Positions 3,897 to 21,389 of a stretch of DNA of 21,775 nucleotides are shown here, piece by piece. Under the pieces are notes generated by a model. That model had not been told where the DNA came from and did not search any database. It saw only the letters and a program-made list of their open reading frames with translations. The first letter of the stretch is position 1, and every line of letters starts with the position of its first letter. A program made the translations under genes and the position numbers. The DNA comes from a virus, in IMG/VR virus record IMGVR_UViG_3300031027_000046, positions 1 to 21,775 of that record. One strand, given 5' to 3'.

Positions 3897-5699
3897 TCAG
3901 AGGTTGGGCTGGCCGCCGGTAGCGAGGCTGGCGACGCCCTGGCCGCTGACCATGAAGGTCAGCGTGTAGAGGCGGGACTCGTGGCCGACCTTGGCCACCA
4001 GGTGCGCCTCTTCTGCCCAGGCCGCGGTGAAGTCGTTCTCCGCGTTGAGGATGGAGTCCCGGATCACGCCGAGGTCCAGGCTCAGACCCGTGCCGTGCAG
4101 GAACGTCCCGGCGGCGTACATCATGAACTGCACCGTGGTCGGCCACGCGGTCATCTGGGCTGCGGCCTGCCCGAACTGGCTGGCACCGCGCACCTGCCAG
4201 TCGCTGACGAACTGGACGGCCACGCCGCGGGTGGCGAACATGGCGATGATCGCCGAGTCCGGGACCGACAGGGTGGAGTCGTCGCCGTAGGTGCGCCAGG
4301 TCAGGTCGGCCCGGATCGCAGCCAGCACCCACGTGGGGAGCACAACCTCCAGGACGGCAGTGTCGCTCATGCCGAACCGGTTGCGGTAGTCGACCGCAGC
4401 CAGCTCGATGCCGTTCATGACGCCCTGGAAGGCGGGGACGGTAGCGCTGGCCGGAAGGGCTGCGGTGACGGTGGACGCGGCGGACATCAGCGAGATGAGC
4501 CTGGCGTTGATGACGTGAGCGTAGGCGTTGCGCAGCAGCCGCAGGAAGTTCTGCGCGGCCTCGGGGTACGCGCTGTCGGTCAGGTTGCCCGCGGTGAGCG
4601 TGATGCCGTAGACCTCAAGGCGCGAGTTGCTGAAGCTGGCGCAGGGTACCCGCAGGGTCGGCTTGTTGATCGAGCCGGTGACGGTGTTGATGTCGTCGGT
4701 CTCGCTCCACAGCCACGGGTCGCTCGTGTTGGCGAAGGTGGCCGCGAAACCGCCCATGCCGGTCGCCGGGTTGCTCCCGCCTGCGGTGAAGAACACGTCC
4801 TTGATGGACGGGCTGGTCGGGAATTGGATGCCGCCACGGCTGATCCCGACGGTCGGCAGGTCGATGATCCCGCTCGGCACGTCGGAGATGTTGAACAGGT
4901 CGTAGTAGATCTCGCTGGGCGCGCACCATCCGCCGCCGGCAAGGAGTGCCTGCTGCTTGTCGCCGCCGGTCAGCTCCCGGACCAGGCGGTCGATCTGCGC
5001 CGGGCCCGTGCGCTCGTCCACCGTGTGGGTGAACTGGTTCTGGATCGAGGCGACGGGGTAGCGCGCGGCGCCCTGGCCCTGGGCCGTGGTCGGGATGTTG
5101 CTGGCCCGCTGGATGAACGCGTCAGCCATCGCCTCCATCGAGACGACCACGCCGCCGGAGGCCACGCCGCGCTTCGGAATATCCACCGAGGCAGTGATCA
5201 CCTTGAGGTTCGCCTTGGCCGGGGCGACGCCCGGGTCCGGCGCGAACTGCCTCGAGGCGCTGAGGCTGGCGGCCTGGCGGACCACGTCCGCCGGGCTGTT
5301 GCCGCCGCGTCCGCTGCCCATCGCGGCGACCAGGCCCTGGGTGACACCGCGGGCTGCCGCAGCAGCGACGGCCTCCAGGTCGCCGGTGGTCTGCGATGCG
5401 GCTGCCGGATCGGCCGGCCCGTGGACCCGCTCGCTCAGCTTGGCCATCGCCTGCGCGGCGGTGTCCTTGGCCGCGGTGGCCTTCAGTTCGGCACGCACGT
5501 CGCGGACGCGCAGCTCCTCGTTGATCCGGTCCAGGTCGTCGGCCACCGAAGTGGCCTGCTGGAGGATCTCCGGGGTCAGGTCGTCCTGGCCGTGGACCCG
5601 CTCGAACGCGGCGACAGCCTGGTCCCGCAGGGCGGCCAGTTCGGCGTCACCCATGAGGGTGAGTTCGAGAGGGCAGGAAAAGACTTCGTCTCCCGACAC
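3897..5699 (-). CDS. Major capsid protein, large form with N-terminal helical extension
   Basis: The protein is 600 residues if translation starts at the GTG at 5699, which has GGAGG five bases upstream; a TTG at 5711 in frame overlaps that ribosome site and is less likely. Residues ~15-110 are charged and helix-prone (AELAALRDQAVAAFERVHG, EELRVRDVRAELKATAAKD), as expected for a scaffold-like delta domain removed during maturation. The remaining ~450 residues carry a mixed alpha/beta pattern with ALLAGGGWCAPSEIYYDLF, GGIQFPTSPSIKDVFFTAGG and a C-terminal AAWAEEAHLVAKVGHESRLYT-like segment. It follows the MuF/protease fusion by two tiny genes, the usual place for an HK97-fold capsid gene. Assignment rests on order, size and architecture. 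Confidence 0.85.
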   Translation of the reverse strand: MSGDEVFSCPLELTLMGDAELAALRDQAVAAFERVHGQDDLTPEILQQATSVADDLDRINEELRVRDVRAELKATAAKDTAAQAMAKLSERVHGPADPAAASQTTGDLEAVAAAAARGVTQGLVAAMGSGRGGNSPADVVRQAASLSASRQFAPDPGVAPAKANLKVITASVDIPKRGVASGGVVVSMEAMADAFIQRASNIPTTAQGQGAARYPVASIQNQFTHTVDERTGPAQIDRLVRELTGGDKQQALLAGGGWCAPSEIYYDLFNISDVPSGIIDLPTVGISRGGIQFPTSPSIKDVFFTAGGSNPATGMGGFAATFANTSDPWLWSETDDINTVTGSINKPTLRVPCASFSNSRLEVYGITLTAGNLTDSAYPEAAQNFLRLLRNAYAHVINARLISLMSAASTVTAALPASATVPAFQGVMNGIELAAVDYRNRFGMSDTAVLEVVLPTWVLAAIRADLTWRTYGDDSTLSVPDSAIIAMFATRGVAVQFVSDWQVRGASQFGQAAAQMTAWPTTVQFMMYAAGTFLHGTGLSLDLGVIRDSILNAENDFTAAWAEEAHLVAKVGHESRLYTLTFMVSGQGVASLATGGQPNL

Positions 5700-17553: not shown

Positions 17554-17915
17554 GCCTGGACGGCTGGTGCCGGTGCAGGCGTGCGCTTCACCAGGGTCAC
17601 CGGGGTGACGTGGCCTCGGGAGATCAGCATCAGGAGCGCGAGGACGAGGCCGTTGACGGCCCCGACGACCCCTGGGCTGATGGAGAAGTGGAAGGTGGCC
17701 AGCAGGTCGACGGCGGCCACGACCAGGCCGGTGAAGGCGGTAGGTGCCAGCGGCCGGGTGAGGACGGCGGCCACGACGGCGAAGACAGCGGTGATGATCG
17801 CGGTGATGGCCCCGGCCTGGTCGGTCGTCAGACCGACGTTCAGGGTCACCACCACGGAGAGCACGGCGGATATGAAGGTGGTGATCAGGACAGGCTCGTT
17901 GCCCAGCGGCTTCAT
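17550..17915 (-). CDS. Holin-like membrane protein, 121 aa
   Basis: The ATG at 17915 has GAAGGA upstream. Three or four hydrophobic segments are visible at ~10-30, 34-55, 62-78 and 82-100, including VLITTFISAVLSVVVTLNVG and GAITAIITAVFAVVAAVL. A short Thr/Pro/Ala-rich C-terminal tail with basic residues follows. Size and topology fit an actinophage holin, which would form pores to release lysins or trigger membrane collapse. It begins the accessory operon 57 bases after terL. The designation is inferred from topology and context, not from a specific motif. Confidence 0.72.
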   Translation of the reverse strand: MKPLGNEPVLITTFISAVLSVVVTLNVGLTTDQAGAITAIITAVFAVVAAVLTRPLAPTAFTGLVVAAVDLLATFHFSISPGVVGAVNGLVLALLMLISRGHVTPVTLVKRTPAPAPAVQA

Positions 17916-17972
17916 CGGGATCCTTCTCTCGGTTGGCAGCAGTATGACCCGAGTGTTTTCAAGATCTGTCCG

Positions 17973-20345
17973 CTAGCCGATGGCCCGGGAGGCAGCCTTG
18001 CTGCCGAGGCCGGACCGGCCGGTACCCCTGGAAGTGGTGTGCACCAGTTTCTGCCCCCAGGCGTTCCAGACGCTGTTGTGCACCAGGATCCCGTTGGCGA
18101 AGAACTCCGGAACTTCCTCCACCGTCAGGTCATAGACCGGCCGCCTTCCTACGGGCTCGGAGATGCGCTCCACAGGAGTTGGAGCAAGTCGCGGGCACGG
18201 GCCGGTACTTGCTCTGCATGAACCCGGCGCCGCAGACGGGGCATTCAGCAGGCACCCTGTACCGGTCAGCCCGGTCGGACATACGCCGGTTGCAGGCTCG
18301 GGAGCAGTGCCGCGACTCTCCGGCATGCCGGGTCGAGTAGGTCTTTCCGCAAGCCTCGCAGGCCGAAGTGCGGGCCTCCCGGTTCGCGTAGCTGGCAGTA
18401 GCCTGCTGGGAATGCCAGGTCCGGCCTTCGTCACTCCGGTGCCAGTCCACGGCGAGGCCCCGGATAGCGTCCAGGTGGGCCAGCCACTCGGCGCTTCCCC
18501 GGTCGAAGTCTCCGGGATGTATCCGGGAATGCTCAAGGCGGGTGACGCACTGGAGGTTGGACGGGTCGTTGTTGAGAGGATCGAAGTCGACGTGATGGAT
18601 GACGCAGCCGCGAGGTACACCGCTCGCTCCGTGAGCCGCCTTCCACACCTCGGTATGGAGTTGACCGACGCCCCGAAGCCGTTTCCCGTCGGCGTAAGCG
18701 GTGTAGTAGACCCGGGCCGACCTGTGTCCAGATGCCGGATTCCGGCTGTAGGTGATGCCGTTGAAGACCACGGACTCCTTCTCGGATGCCATGCCCCCAG
18801 TCTATCGCCCCAGACTATGGCGTCCAGTCTTACGAACCCTTTGCCGAGCACCCAGACCCGATGGTTGGCCGTCCCGGTAAGGGGGCCCGCAGGGGTGTCC
18901 ACGCGGATGACCTCCTCGCTGGAGGACGTCATCCAGGAGCGCAGAACGCGCCGCCAGCCCTGTCGCGTCATTACCTGGTCGTCCGTAGTCACCGCTTCGA
19001 TCGGGACCGGCCCCCGGCGGGTGGTGACCAGGGTCCCCGCTACAAGGCAGGCGTCCAAGTGGTCCGGAGACCAGTCGAGTTCGGGGTACCAGGTGGTCAT
19101 CTGATCTTCCAAAACTTCGAAGACGCCGGCATGCCTCCAATACCCCTGTGAGGTCAGAGCGCTGACAGGCTGCGCCCGGATCGCCTTGCCCCGGGTGGCC
19201 GTCACGATCCGGATGGGGATGTTCACCCCCATGGCCTCGGCGGCCGTCCGGAGAGTCGAGACGCACATGGCCCCGCCGTAGTTGGTCTCCACGAAGATCT
19301 CGTCCGCGTTCCAGTCCACGGCCGCACTGACCGCCTTCCGGCCCCACCCGTCCGGAGACAGGTGGCAGCTCCGGTCGTCCAGGACGAAGCCCTGGTGGCG
19401 GGCCCTGGACGGAGGGAGCGTCAGACCTTCCTCAACGGGCATCACCGGAGGCAGTAGCAACCTCTTCGACTTGCCTACCACGATGATCCCCTGCTCCCCG
19501 GCTCCACCTGACGGGTCTACTCCGATCGAGATGCGGCCGAGATCCGGGACCGACCCTGCGTCGATGCGGGCGGCATCAATCGTGGACCGCTTCCACAGGG
19601 CGTTCTCGTCCTCGTCAATCACCAGGCCCAGGAGTTCCTGCCGACCGAGTTGCGTCCCGCCGTACGCGTCCTCCAGTGCTTCCCTGATCGACAGCGGCAA
19701 GTGCGGGTTGTCGTACATGGACGCCCGCGTAACGACGGTGTCCCGGATGCCGTTCGCTGCCAGTTTCCGGATCAGGTCCCGGGGCTTGGGTGTGGTGGAC
19801 CCGACCCAGTGCGGGTGCGGCCCGGCGCGCAAGCCGAACCTCATGTGGTCCCAGGCGTCCGCCAGGTACCGCCAGGCAGCTAGCTCCTCAGCCCAAACAG
19901 AGCACCGGTTCCCGCCAGAGCGGAGGCGCTCCACGTCATCGGCACTGTTGGCGCCGAACAGCTTGGCCTCGGAACCGTTCGGCCAGATCACGGTGAGCCC
20001 GCCGGGCCGCTGCACCATCCGGGCCGTCGGGTCGTGGGCGCGTATTCCGGACGGCCCTGCGAAGCAGGATGTGGCGGCATCGCCCAAGGTCGGCGCGATG
20101 ATGCCGACCCAGTGCGGGACGGGGCCGGGCAGGCATGCGGGGCCCTTGACGTGCTCCACGATGTGGTTGGCGCAGACGTCCGTCTTCCCGGCACCGCGTC
20201 CGGCGAGCAGCAGCCAGCCGTACCAGTCCCCCGGCGGGGTCACCTGGTGCGGCAGCGGGGTCCAACGCGGCGAGCGCAGCTCGGCGACCCGCTGGGCCAG
20301 CAGGTCGGCCGCCTTGCGGGCGACTATCTCAGCGTCACCGGGCAT
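17973..20345 (-). CDS. terL: Terminase large subunit precursor interrupted by an intein, 790 aa
   Basis: It would pump DNA into the head and cut it. Walker A is GRGAGKT at 49-55; a Walker B-like strand is CSVWAEELAAW; a coupling motif is GSTTPKP. The RNase H-like nuclease supplies D in SIGVDPSGG and E in IFVETNYGG. The third acidic motif, SPDHLDA, is cut by an intein (residues 433-757); the C-extein resumes at S758 with VWNAWG. The spliced protein would be 465 residues, normal for this family. The ATG at 20345 has a weak ribosome site and lies 20 bases after the NUMOD3-array stop. Intein excision would be needed to restore the nuclease centre. Confidence 0.93.
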   Translation of the reverse strand: MPGDAEIVARKAADLLAQRVAELRSPRWTPLPHQVTPPGDWYGWLLLAGRGAGKTDVCANHIVEHVKGPACLPGPVPHWVGIIAPTLGDAATSCFAGPSGIRAHDPTARMVQRPGGLTVIWPNGSEAKLFGANSADDVERLRSGGNRCSVWAEELAAWRYLADAWDHMRFGLRAGPHPHWVGSTTPKPRDLIRKLAANGIRDTVVTRASMYDNPHLPLSIREALEDAYGGTQLGRQELLGLVIDEDENALWKRSTIDAARIDAGSVPDLGRISIGVDPSGGAGEQGIIVVGKSKRLLLPPVMPVEEGLTLPPSRARHQGFVLDDRSCHLSPDGWGRKAVSAAVDWNADEIFVETNYGGAMCVSTLRTAAEAMGVNIPIRIVTATRGKAIRAQPVSALTSQGYWRHAGVFEVLEDQMTTWYPELDWSPDHLDACLVAGTLVTTRRGPVPIEAVTTDDQVMTRQGWRRVLRSWMTSSSEEVIRVDTPAGPLTGTANHRVWVLGKGFVRLDAIVWGDRLGAWHPRRSPWSSTASPTAGIRHLDTGRPGSTTPLTPTGNGFGASVNSIPRCGRRLTERAVYLAAASSITSTSILSTTTRPTSSASPALSIPGYIPETSTGEAPSGWPTWTLSGASPWTGTGVTKAGPGIPSRLLPATRTGRPALRPARLAERPTRPGMPESRGTAPEPATGVCPTGLTGTGCLLNAPSAAPGSCRASTGPCPRLAPTPVERISEPVGRRPVYDLTVEEVPEFFANGILVHNSVWNAWGQKLVHTTSRGTGRSGLGSKAASRAIG
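18075..19049 (-). mobile_element. Intein in TerL at the third nuclease motif (325 codons) with nested HNH gene
   Basis: The N-terminal splicing block begins C433-LVAGTLVTT; block B is GTANHRVWV with H495; the C-terminal blocks are VYDLTVEEVPEFF and NGILVHN, followed by Ser+1. The nucleophile, block-B His, penultimate His and terminal Asn are all present, so it should splice as a class 1 intein. Only about 85 N-terminal and 37-40 C-terminal codons look like intein, together a mini-intein. The ~200 codons between read as Ser/Thr/Pro/Arg-rich filler in this frame because that DNA encodes an HNH enzyme in the -1 frame. The total length is divisible by three, keeping terL open. Confidence 0.92.
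18130..18792 (-). CDS. HNH homing endonuclease nested out of frame within the intein, 220 aa
   Basis: The frame is -1 relative to terL and starts at ATG 18792, 9 bases after an in-frame TAG (18802-18804). The HNH core is VIHHVDFDPLNNDPSNLQC followed by RLEHSRIHPGD, with the usual His-His, Asn and His. Two Cys4 zinc-ribbon-like units follow: CEACGKTY...HCSRAC and CPVCGAGF...TCSNSC. The N-terminal ~60 residues (VVFNGITYSRNP, YYTAYADGKRLRG) resemble the beta-rich N-terminus of HNH_3-type enzymes. The ribosome site is poor; a run of five G (18794-18798) directly before the ATG might allow -1 slippage. It overlaps the C-terminal intein codons by about 55 bases. A homing role is inferred from family and location. 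Confidence 0.87.
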   Translation of the reverse strand: MASEKESVVFNGITYSRNPASGHRSARVYYTAYADGKRLRGVGQLHTEVWKAAHGASGVPRGCVIHHVDFDPLNNDPSNLQCVTRLEHSRIHPGDFDRGSAEWLAHLDAIRGLAVDWHRSDEGRTWHSQQATASYANREARTSACEACGKTYSTRHAGESRHCSRACNRRMSDRADRYRVPAECPVCGAGFMQSKYRPVPATCSNSCGAHLRARRKAAGL

Positions 20346-20365
20346 GGGCCCATGATGCCCGTGGA

Positions 20366-20761
20366 TCAGGCCTCGGCCTTCCGGCGGCGCTTCCGCTCGT
20401 GCCGGTGCCTGCCCTTCTCGGCCGCACTGATCTTCCGACGGGTGGCCGCTGACAGGTGGTGGTGGCTCTTGCTGCGCCGGGACTCCCGGGCCCGGCGCTT
20501 GCCCTTCTCTGCCAGACTGATCTTCCGGCGGGTGGCCGCAGACTCCCGGTGACCCCTGTGCGGGTGCCGCTTGCCTAGGCGCTCCGCCCGCTCCTTCGCC
20601 CGGGTCGCCAAGGACTGCTTGTGCCCCTTGTGCGGGTGCTTTCTGCCGAGGCGCTCGGCCCGCTCCTTGGCCCGGGTGGCCGCCGAGGCCTTGTGGCCGC
20701 GGTGCGGGTGGTGCCTGCCGCGCTCGGCCGCACTGATCTTCCGGCGGGTGGCCGCAGACTC
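20366..20761 (-). repeat. Tandem 72-bp coding repeats of the NUMOD3 array
   Basis: Repeat boundaries on the plus strand are 20690-20761, 20618-20689, 20546-20617, 20456-20545 and 20366-20455. The first three are exactly 72 bases (24 codons); the fourth is 90. The plus-strand word ctgatcttccg, then a or g, then cgggtggccgc, is almost identical in repeats 1, 4 and 5, suggesting recent duplication or conversion, whereas repeats 2 and 3 form a second subtype with a cgctc(g/c)gcccgctcctt(g/c)gc core. Confidence 0.85.
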
Positions 20762-20833
20762 CGGCCGCCTGGCACGCCGGGCGCGGTGCGGGCCATCAGG
20801 CAGGGTCCCCGGTATCGGATATGACCTCGCCAT
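20366..20833 (-). CDS. Free-standing NUMOD3-like repeat DNA-binding protein, 155 aa
   Basis: Five tandem copies of a NUMOD3-like motif fill residues 25-155: SAATRRKISAAERGR (25-48), SAATRAKERAERLGR (49-72), SLATRAKERAERLGK (73-96), SAATRRKISLAEKGK (97-126) and SAATRRKISAAEKGR (127-155). NUMOD3 is normally a DNA-binding accessory of HNH or GIY-YIG homing endonucleases; no nuclease domain is present here. The protein is extremely basic, with His-rich linkers (HHPHRGHK). I use the ATG at 20833, which overlaps terS by 38 bases without a clear ribosome site; a start further upstream is possible. It lies between terS and terL, so it is transcribed with packaging genes. It may be a relic of a homing gene or a packaging-related DNA binder. 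Confidence 0.8.
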   Translation of the reverse strand: MARSYPIPGTLPDGPHRARRARRPESAATRRKISAAERGRHHPHRGHKASAATRAKERAERLGRKHPHKGHKQSLATRAKERAERLGKRHPHRGHRESAATRRKISLAEKGKRRARESRRSKSHHHLSAATRRKISAAEKGRHRHERKRRRKAEA

Positions 20834-21389
20834 CGATCGCTGACAGCTTCGCCTGGGCAGCCTCCAGGGCGACCATCCGCTGCCTGGGGTCCAGGTTGAT
20901 GGCACCGAGCCCGGCCAGGATCGCCTCCACCACGACGGTGGCCTCCAGGTCGGTGCGCTGCTCGAAAGCTATGGTCAGCGACGGAGAGGCGTCCAGGCCG
21001 TGGCGTTTGGAGTACCGCTCGCTGATCCGGCCGAGCCGGTCGATCGCCGCCATGTTGGGGCCGAAGTCACGGACCGGGTTTCCGTCGCGGTCCGTGACGA
21101 CCTTTCCGCCCTGGATGAGCGGATGGCGGCCGGCGAGGATGGCGTACAGGGTGCGCCGCATACCGTCGTCGCGCTCGTCCTCGATCTGGCGCAGCATCTC
21201 GACACTCTCGGCGAGTTCGGCGCGGTGCTGCGCCAGGGCCCGGGATATGTCCATGTACGCGGCGGCTTTGTCACCGTGGTAGTGCTCCGCCATCTGGTCG
21301 GCGATCTGCTGGTAGGTGAAGCCGCTGCGCTTCAGCTCGATGGCCTTGGTCCGCCGTGCCGCCAGGTGCGCCTGGTCTCCGGTGCCCAT
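20796..21389 (-). CDS. terS: Terminase small subunit, 197 aa
   Basis: It would recognise phage DNA and recruit TerL for packaging. The ATG at 21389 has GGAGG six bases upstream; a longer frame to 21677 runs antisense through the lysozyme gene and is rejected. Residues ~8-35 form a helix-turn-helix-like N-terminus (ARRTKAIELKRSGFTYQQIA), followed by a long helical region (ISRALAQHRAELAESVEMLR, DERDDGMRRTLYAILAG) typical of oligomerising TerS. The C-terminal part contains GPNMAAIDRLGRISERYSKR. Location directly before terL supports the assignment. Confidence 0.85.
   Translation of the reverse strand: MGTGDQAHLAARRTKAIELKRSGFTYQQIADQMAEHYHGDKAAAYMDISRALAQHRAELAESVEMLRQIEDERDDGMRRTLYAILAGRHPLIQGGKVVTDRDGNPVRDFGPNMAAIDRLGRISERYSKRHGLDASPSLTIAFEQRTDLEATVVVEAILAGLGAINLDPRQRMVALEAAQAKLSAIDGEVISDTGDPA

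Follow-up and report, generated by a model that had tools for sequence, protein, structure and literature searches.

The gene for the large terminase subunit, terL, in IMG/VR virus record IMGVR_UViG_3300031027_000046 is interrupted by an intein, and inside the intein, in a different reading frame, lies a second gene that encodes an HNH endonuclease. The stretch of DNA analysed, referred to here as the window, is the complete record, 21,775 nucleotides (nt) in length. Very probably, this is a mobile TerL intein that carries a separately translated HNH homing endonuclease overprinted upon it in the −1 frame. Nor is it a singular case: a nested, out-of-frame HNH gene in a TerL intein is a common intein form, and one that is maintained by selection.

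As we picture it, the HINT domain of the intein, encoded in the terL frame, would splice itself out of the translated precursor, and active TerL would remain. The HNH enzyme would come not from a fused domain but from a gene of its own, which is overprinted in −1 on the loop that joins blocks B and F and is translated from a nested start codon, possibly by way of an embedded promoter. The enzyme would then cut the intein-free terL allele of a co-infecting phage, and repair would copy the entire element. Selection keeps the terL frame free of stops across the HNH gene, and the disordered linker that this frame encodes would leave with the intein.

Two genes in one stretch of DNA

The terL frame runs for 790 codons without a stop, intein region included (Table 1), and its product matches Terminase_6N (expect value, E, 1.1e-13) and Terminase_6C (E 1.5e-6) in Pfam. 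The intein enters the terminase nuclease domain directly after SPDHLDA and has the residues that inteins use: an N-terminal Cys, the block B motif T492-x-x-H495, block G as VHN/S with a C-terminal Asn, and Ser758 at the +1 position. Pfam Hint_2 matches TerL residues 433–470 (E 2.7e-5), Intein_splicing matches 725–757 (E 1.4e-4), and TIGR01443, intein_Cterm, matches 736–758 at a level that exceeds the family cut-off (E 8.7e-7). In an alignment of 47 inteins C1, T60, H63 and N325 are invariant. AlphaFold2 (AF2) models the two ends with high predicted local distance difference test scores (pLDDT 96–98 for intein residues 1–80, 91 for residues 81–90, and 94–98 at the C-terminal end), and Foldseek matches the model to the DnaB, RecA and gp41-1 mini-inteins, with E down to 2e-6. 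Residues 91–285 have pLDDT values of about 38–52 and no secondary structure. The ends are predicted, then, to form a HINT domain that carries a disordered loop of ~195 residues, in keeping with an earlier supposition, made from the letters alone, that this in-frame filler must not block splicing. The filler stands where inteins usually carry an endonuclease, between blocks B and F; it gave no family match in profile searches, and no endonuclease domain is fused in the intein frame.

The endonuclease lies in the −1 frame instead. Its open reading frame (ORF) comprises 663 bases including the stop, is offset from TerL by 2 mod 3, and ends within the coding region of block F. That a homing endonuclease is nested here out of frame, with an ATG of its own 9 bases past a TAG (18804–18802) in the same frame, was the central claim of the preliminary description; the positions are confirmed, and coordinates, intein blocks, family match and relatives all agree with it. 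PF13392, HNH_3, matches residues 45–90 of the protein with E 6.2e-13, and the AF2 model has a mean pLDDT of 93.4. Its two cysteine modules find structural matches among FCS and YacG zinc fingers. Profile searches of the PDB returned five matches, all weak, among which I-HmuI (E 0.0067) is the sole nuclease. I-HmuI also came top of the structure search, weakly (E 0.17, template modelling score 0.22), and we do not take this as proof of anything.

Table 1. Positions in the window of terL, its intein and the nested HNH gene
Feature	Position	Strand	Basis
terL, large terminase subunit with intein; 790 amino acid (aa) precursor, predicted 465 aa after splicing	20345..17973	(-)	ORF and translation; Pfam
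Intein, 325 aa, terL frame; C433 (codon at 19049) to N757 (ends 18075)	19049-18075	(-)	HINT/intein family matches; 47-sequence alignment; empty-site comparison
N-terminal splicing region, blocks A-B, C433 to about L516	18798..19049	(-)	Intein N-block hidden Markov model (HMM); AF2
C-terminal splicing region, blocks F-G, VYDLTVEEVPEFFANGILVHN	18075..18173	(-)	TIGR01443; C-block HMM; AF2
Filler, terL frame, rich in Ser/Thr/Pro/Arg, predicted disordered	18174..18797	(-)	AF2; pN/pS >1
Nested HNH endonuclease ORF, 220 aa, -1 frame relative to terL, ATG start	18792..18130	(-)	HNH_3; AF2; purifying selection
HNH_3 catalytic domain, L45 to about V90; HH66-67, N74/N75, N79, H88	18523..18660	(-)	HNH_3 match; residues conserved or near-invariant in 44 relatives
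Two C-x2-C...C-x3-C zinc-ribbon-like modules of HNH, C145-C167 and C184-C207	18172..18360	(-)	Cys near-invariant in 44 relatives; structural matches
TAGACT, putative -10-like hexamer 6 nt ahead of HNH ATG; TAG doubles as HNH-frame stop	18799..18804	(-)	Hypothesis, from enrichment in relatives and codon usage

A class of TerL inteins

Three further IMG/VR contigs, L013–L015, carry the window's element at 100% identity. Searched with tblastn, the HNH protein also leads into the annotated terL genes of Tetrasphaera phage TJE1, Acinetobacter phage Highwayman and Rhodobacteraceae phage LS06-2018-MD07, where it lies within intein blocks in the −1 register once more, unannotated, at a locus labelled only 'terminase'. 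Loci L013–L244 came from viral contigs, which were scanned with TerL, with the intein C-block and with two HNH alignments, and from a scan of bacterial genomes; HMMs for the intein N-block, the C-block and HNH were run on 244 fetched loci. These loci contain 171 pairs of N- and C-blocks, and in 153 pairs a −1-frame HNH of the family lies between the blocks while the intein frame is open; at 70% identity, 123 of the nested cases are non-redundant. Among 80 inteins sampled by the C-block alone, 67 have a nested −1 HNH and an open intein frame, in-frame and +1 HNH genes are both absent, and no HNH of this family was found in the other 13. One of these 13, L238, has a LAGLIDADG match.

Wherever the host gene could be recognised it was TerL (Terminase_6N in 62 of 116, Terminase_3 in 37 of 116; PHROGs were also used). 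Nested inteins, nearly all of them in TerL, occupy several sites there, in diverse phages, and the window's own TerL family has at least two insertion points, one after SPD[HR]LDA and one before a CLAW motif that we take to be the Walker B region. L142 and L143 each have a single terL with two inteins, each of which holds its own nested −1-frame HNH. In L043 (3220–5568) a TerL intein with a long in-frame filler sits at the Walker A site (GRG/C...HN/SGKT), and no recognised HNH ORF of ≥100 aa is present in the other frames of its strand.

The preliminary description had noticed that the same DNA stays open in two frames, and the relatives bear this out. When each HNH protein was recoded with synonymous codons, by host-gene usage or by its own, 489 or 346 intein-frame stops were expected in the 123 non-redundant cases, and none was observed; the set was selected for open frames, yet only 5 of the 171 pairs fail openness, so the bias is small. 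The third frame has 1921 stops, against 1711 or 2001 expected. The frame that corresponds to HNH codon positions 2-3-1 begins with about 3–4 stops per gene, versus about 14–16 in the other frame; likewise, HNH relatives without nearby intein blocks average 5.1 stops in the intein-equivalent frame and 18.7 in the other. The −1 register, found in 158 of 169 HNH matches with an N-block immediately upstream, prevails because that frame begins with the fewest stops and is easiest to hold open, which accounts for why one register wins. Three loci, L094, L110 and L128, have the HNH in +1; there, +1 has no stops, versus 11–18 expected, and the other frame retains 8–17.

Substitution rates in both frames, a comparison that the preliminary description had recommended, differ sharply. 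Across 123 pairs the proportion of nonsynonymous differences (pN) is lower than that of synonymous differences (pS) in all 123 for the HNH frame, with a median pN/pS of 0.40, and in only 23 for the filler, with a median of 1.14. The window and its relative L018 show the same: nonsynonymous and synonymous divergences (dN, dS) are 0.28 and 1.78 for HNH, and pN and pS are 0.38 and 0.26 for the filler. Purifying selection acts on the HNH frame; the filler, given its pattern, is therefore constrained to stay open, with no detectable constraint on its amino acids. The size of the class, the role of stop density in setting the register, this freedom of the filler, and the rarer +1 and split versions all go beyond the preliminary description.

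TerL with and without the intein was another of the comparisons proposed, and the empty sites proved to be uninterrupted. Twenty-nine of 30 intein-free relatives read straight through WSPDRLD[A/G][M/S]VW (L035 has Glu), so the insertion is in frame, at a conserved extein site for which empty alleles exist. Splicing needs Ser or Cys at +1. Invaded sites have one or the other, versus Met in 28 of the 30 empty sites and Ser in one; that one, L019, is perhaps a former intein carrier, to judge by this residue. In a TerL tree built without the intein sequences, the same-site carriers L013, L016 and L018 do not group together, and the other-site carriers L044, L045 and L050 each pair, with full support, with an intein-free TerL. 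This scatter points to gain and loss, as expected of homing. The HNH protein fits the part, with its HNH_3 motif and catalytic His and Asn residues, its DNA-binding modules, and its sporadic distribution among close relatives.

Making the HNH protein, and other accounts

How might the nested gene be expressed? A Shine-Dalgarno-like motif precedes 42% of HNH starts, versus 14% of inner start-like codons, which serve as background. A second group of starts, to which the window belongs, begins 5 nt past the N-block, and a TANNNT box precedes the start by exactly 6 nt; 34 of 119 starts have the box at this gap, versus 3 expected. The box overlies the codons of a GD-x-[I/L] motif in the intein. Signals resembling a −10 element at other spacings, gap 14 for example, are probably due to YG codons of the protein, and both codon usage and other inteins were for this reason used as controls for the gap-6 box. 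Among the group's high-GC members, 14 of 14 encode the Asp with GAT (P 5e-9, given the codon usage of the host), and the codon that follows is often ATA, AGA or ACA, which are rare in those genes; the box is also enriched against other inteins (P 0.008). We claim no −35 element, the best TTGACA matches being no clearer in the leaderless class than elsewhere. We hypothesise that the box gives rise to a leaderless HNH mRNA. A fuller proposal, which we hold tentatively and would rate as less likely than not, is of a widespread class of phage inteins with an independently expressed, overprinted HNH, in which, for the window's subclass, the GD-x-I/L codons double as a −10 element exactly 6 nt before the start, so that the HNH is made from a leaderless mRNA that does not depend on the late transcription of terL.

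Could the HNH enzyme be made, instead, by −1 ribosomal frameshifting in the translation of terL, as a TerL-intein-HNH fusion? The near-constancy of the −1 register would suit this, but stop density accounts for the register, and +1-frame and split versions occur. Moreover, the median distance from the start to an upstream stop in the HNH frame is 12 nt across relatives (9 nt in the window), which would confine slippage to a few codons, and in the window no classic slippery heptamer can be seen there by eye. We consider frameshifting improbable. Only slightly less so is the idea that TerL has in the HNH a packaging cofactor, retained by the phage for cos cleavage rather than for homing. HNH proteins of the HK97 gp74 type are packaging cofactors of this kind, and the present family occurs almost exclusively in or beside terL, freestanding copies included. 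HNH proteins that aid terminases are also noted in PMC11855218. Yet close intein-free TerL relatives have no family member within about 4 kb, no HNH match came from ten neighbour proteins that were sampled, and the carriers are scattered on the TerL tree; the domain type, too, is HNH_3, with I-HmuI the only nuclease among the weak PDB profile matches.

The remaining accounts treat the overlap as an accident. The window is 69.5% GC, and its filler alone, given the HNH protein, would be open with P 0.005–0.03 (computed at 66% GC), which is only moderately improbable; the open out-of-frame stretch might then be a by-product of base composition, and the HNH a decaying remnant. Low-GC relatives are equally stop-free, however (17 representatives with <35% GC have none, versus 59–103 expected), and the low pN/pS of HNH and the conservation of its catalytic residues and zinc cysteines argue the same way, so that we find this very improbable. 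Scarcely credible, finally, is that a sequencing or assembly frameshift split what is really one fused intein-HNH frame. We found nothing in its favour; the paired indels envisaged in the preliminary description are excluded by the identical copies in other assemblies and by >120 divergent relatives in the same register, and no in-frame HNH fusion was found. A group I or group II intron was rejected for want of an Rfam match up to E = 1 in 17900–20400, and a split intein or fractured gene, in the window, by the stop-free terL frame.

The reading we prefer, a mobile intein with an overprinted homing endonuclease, has points that weigh against it. The loci were collected by similarity and share ancestry, so the counts are not independent, and the pairs used to compare rates were picked by HNH similarity. 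The window's HNH has no clear Shine-Dalgarno motif, and the −10 enrichment was tested post hoc, among kin, in a place where it overlaps conserved GD-x-I/L codons. HNH proteins that neighbour TerL can serve packaging rather than homing. And we infer from sequence that the intein splices, that the HNH is synthesised (whether through internal initiation or by way of an embedded promoter), and that it cuts its target and homes.

Kindred systems

In the open-access literature, subscription journals being outside our scope, we found no description of inteins with out-of-frame endonucleases; out-of-frame HNH insertions appeared there only in phage methylases that lack intein signals, namely the ShiLan domain of a mycobacteriophage DNA methylase (Arsenault, Gosselin and Gogarten 2025, PMC11855218) and a case in phage Applejack (PMC12613952). 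Like the window's element, the ShiLan insertion, the nearest published parallel, is open in the frame of its host gene, holds a −1-frame HNH with zinc fingers, a register that we confirmed in the phage ShiLan sequence itself, and is sporadically distributed. The two insertions are unrelated. The authors of the ShiLan study saw no splicing signals of an intein or an intron, and in their proposal the insert remains part of the methylase (PMC11855218), whereas the window's HNH is flanked by the blocks of a clear HINT intein, in TerL, and belongs to a far larger family. No ribosome-binding site was detectable for the hidden ShiLan HNH, according to the same paper (PMC11855218). In the ShiLan sequence (our locus L245) we note a GGAGG at about 4590–4596, 4 nt before the proposed GTG start. 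Translation of such hidden HNH proteins, a question left open by the ShiLan work, becomes directly testable.

In reviews and structural papers the endonuclease appears as a domain nested within the polypeptide of the intein (PMC6801210). Classical large inteins of this sort, including those of mycobacteriophage TerL (Kelley et al. 2016, PMC5050341), share with the window HINT blocks, insertion in a conserved TerL motif and an endonuclease between blocks B and F; they differ in that theirs is part of the same polypeptide, whereas the window has a separate, overprinted gene and an in-frame filler. The sites differ as well, Kelley's being in the ATPase domain and the window's in the nuclease domain (PMC5050341). 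Group I introns with nested HNH genes, of the I-HmuI type, resemble the window in having an endonuclease gene nested in a self-splicing insert and translated separately, and I-HmuI is, weakly, the nearest solved nuclease. The window's insert, however, would be removed at the protein level, and no Rfam intron matches it.

Dassa et al. reportedly described, in 2009, fractured genes with split inteins whose halves flank a freestanding endonuclease. There, too, the endonuclease is translated apart from the intein halves, but the window and its 153 relatives keep one continuous precursor frame, and no trans-splicing is needed. Four loci look like TerL versions of the split arrangement, with the same HNH family: in L061 (3220–4185), L109 (3188–4171), L117 (1241–2224) and L104 (2668–3645) the HNH gene stands between intein halves, the intein frame contains stops, and the C-terminal part has its own start, preceded in all but L104 by a Shine-Dalgarno-like motif. 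We regard them as candidate split TerL inteins. In other phages freestanding HNH relatives adjoin terL, either between terL and portal or before terS. An evolutionary path that leads from freestanding HNH genes through nested to split inteins, or runs the other way, is plausible, and the nested inteins suggest such a route among the three forms.

The usual picture of an intein is of one polypeptide with two functions. Here, in >120 non-redundant cases, splicing and homing are uncoupled at the level of the gene, and nearly all of the nested cases have been missed by annotation. Together they rank among the larger collections of natural pairs of overprinted genes in which the function of both frames is known, and they indicate that natural inteins appear to tolerate a random-like loop of ~195 residues.

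The window has one more gene of note. Between terS and terL, at 20366–20905 (-), lies a 179-aa ORF made up of NUMOD3 repeats (PF07460, E 1.5e-10), without a nuclease domain: by its sequence, apparently an array of the DNA-binding modules of endonucleases that stands free, next to the intein-bearing terL.
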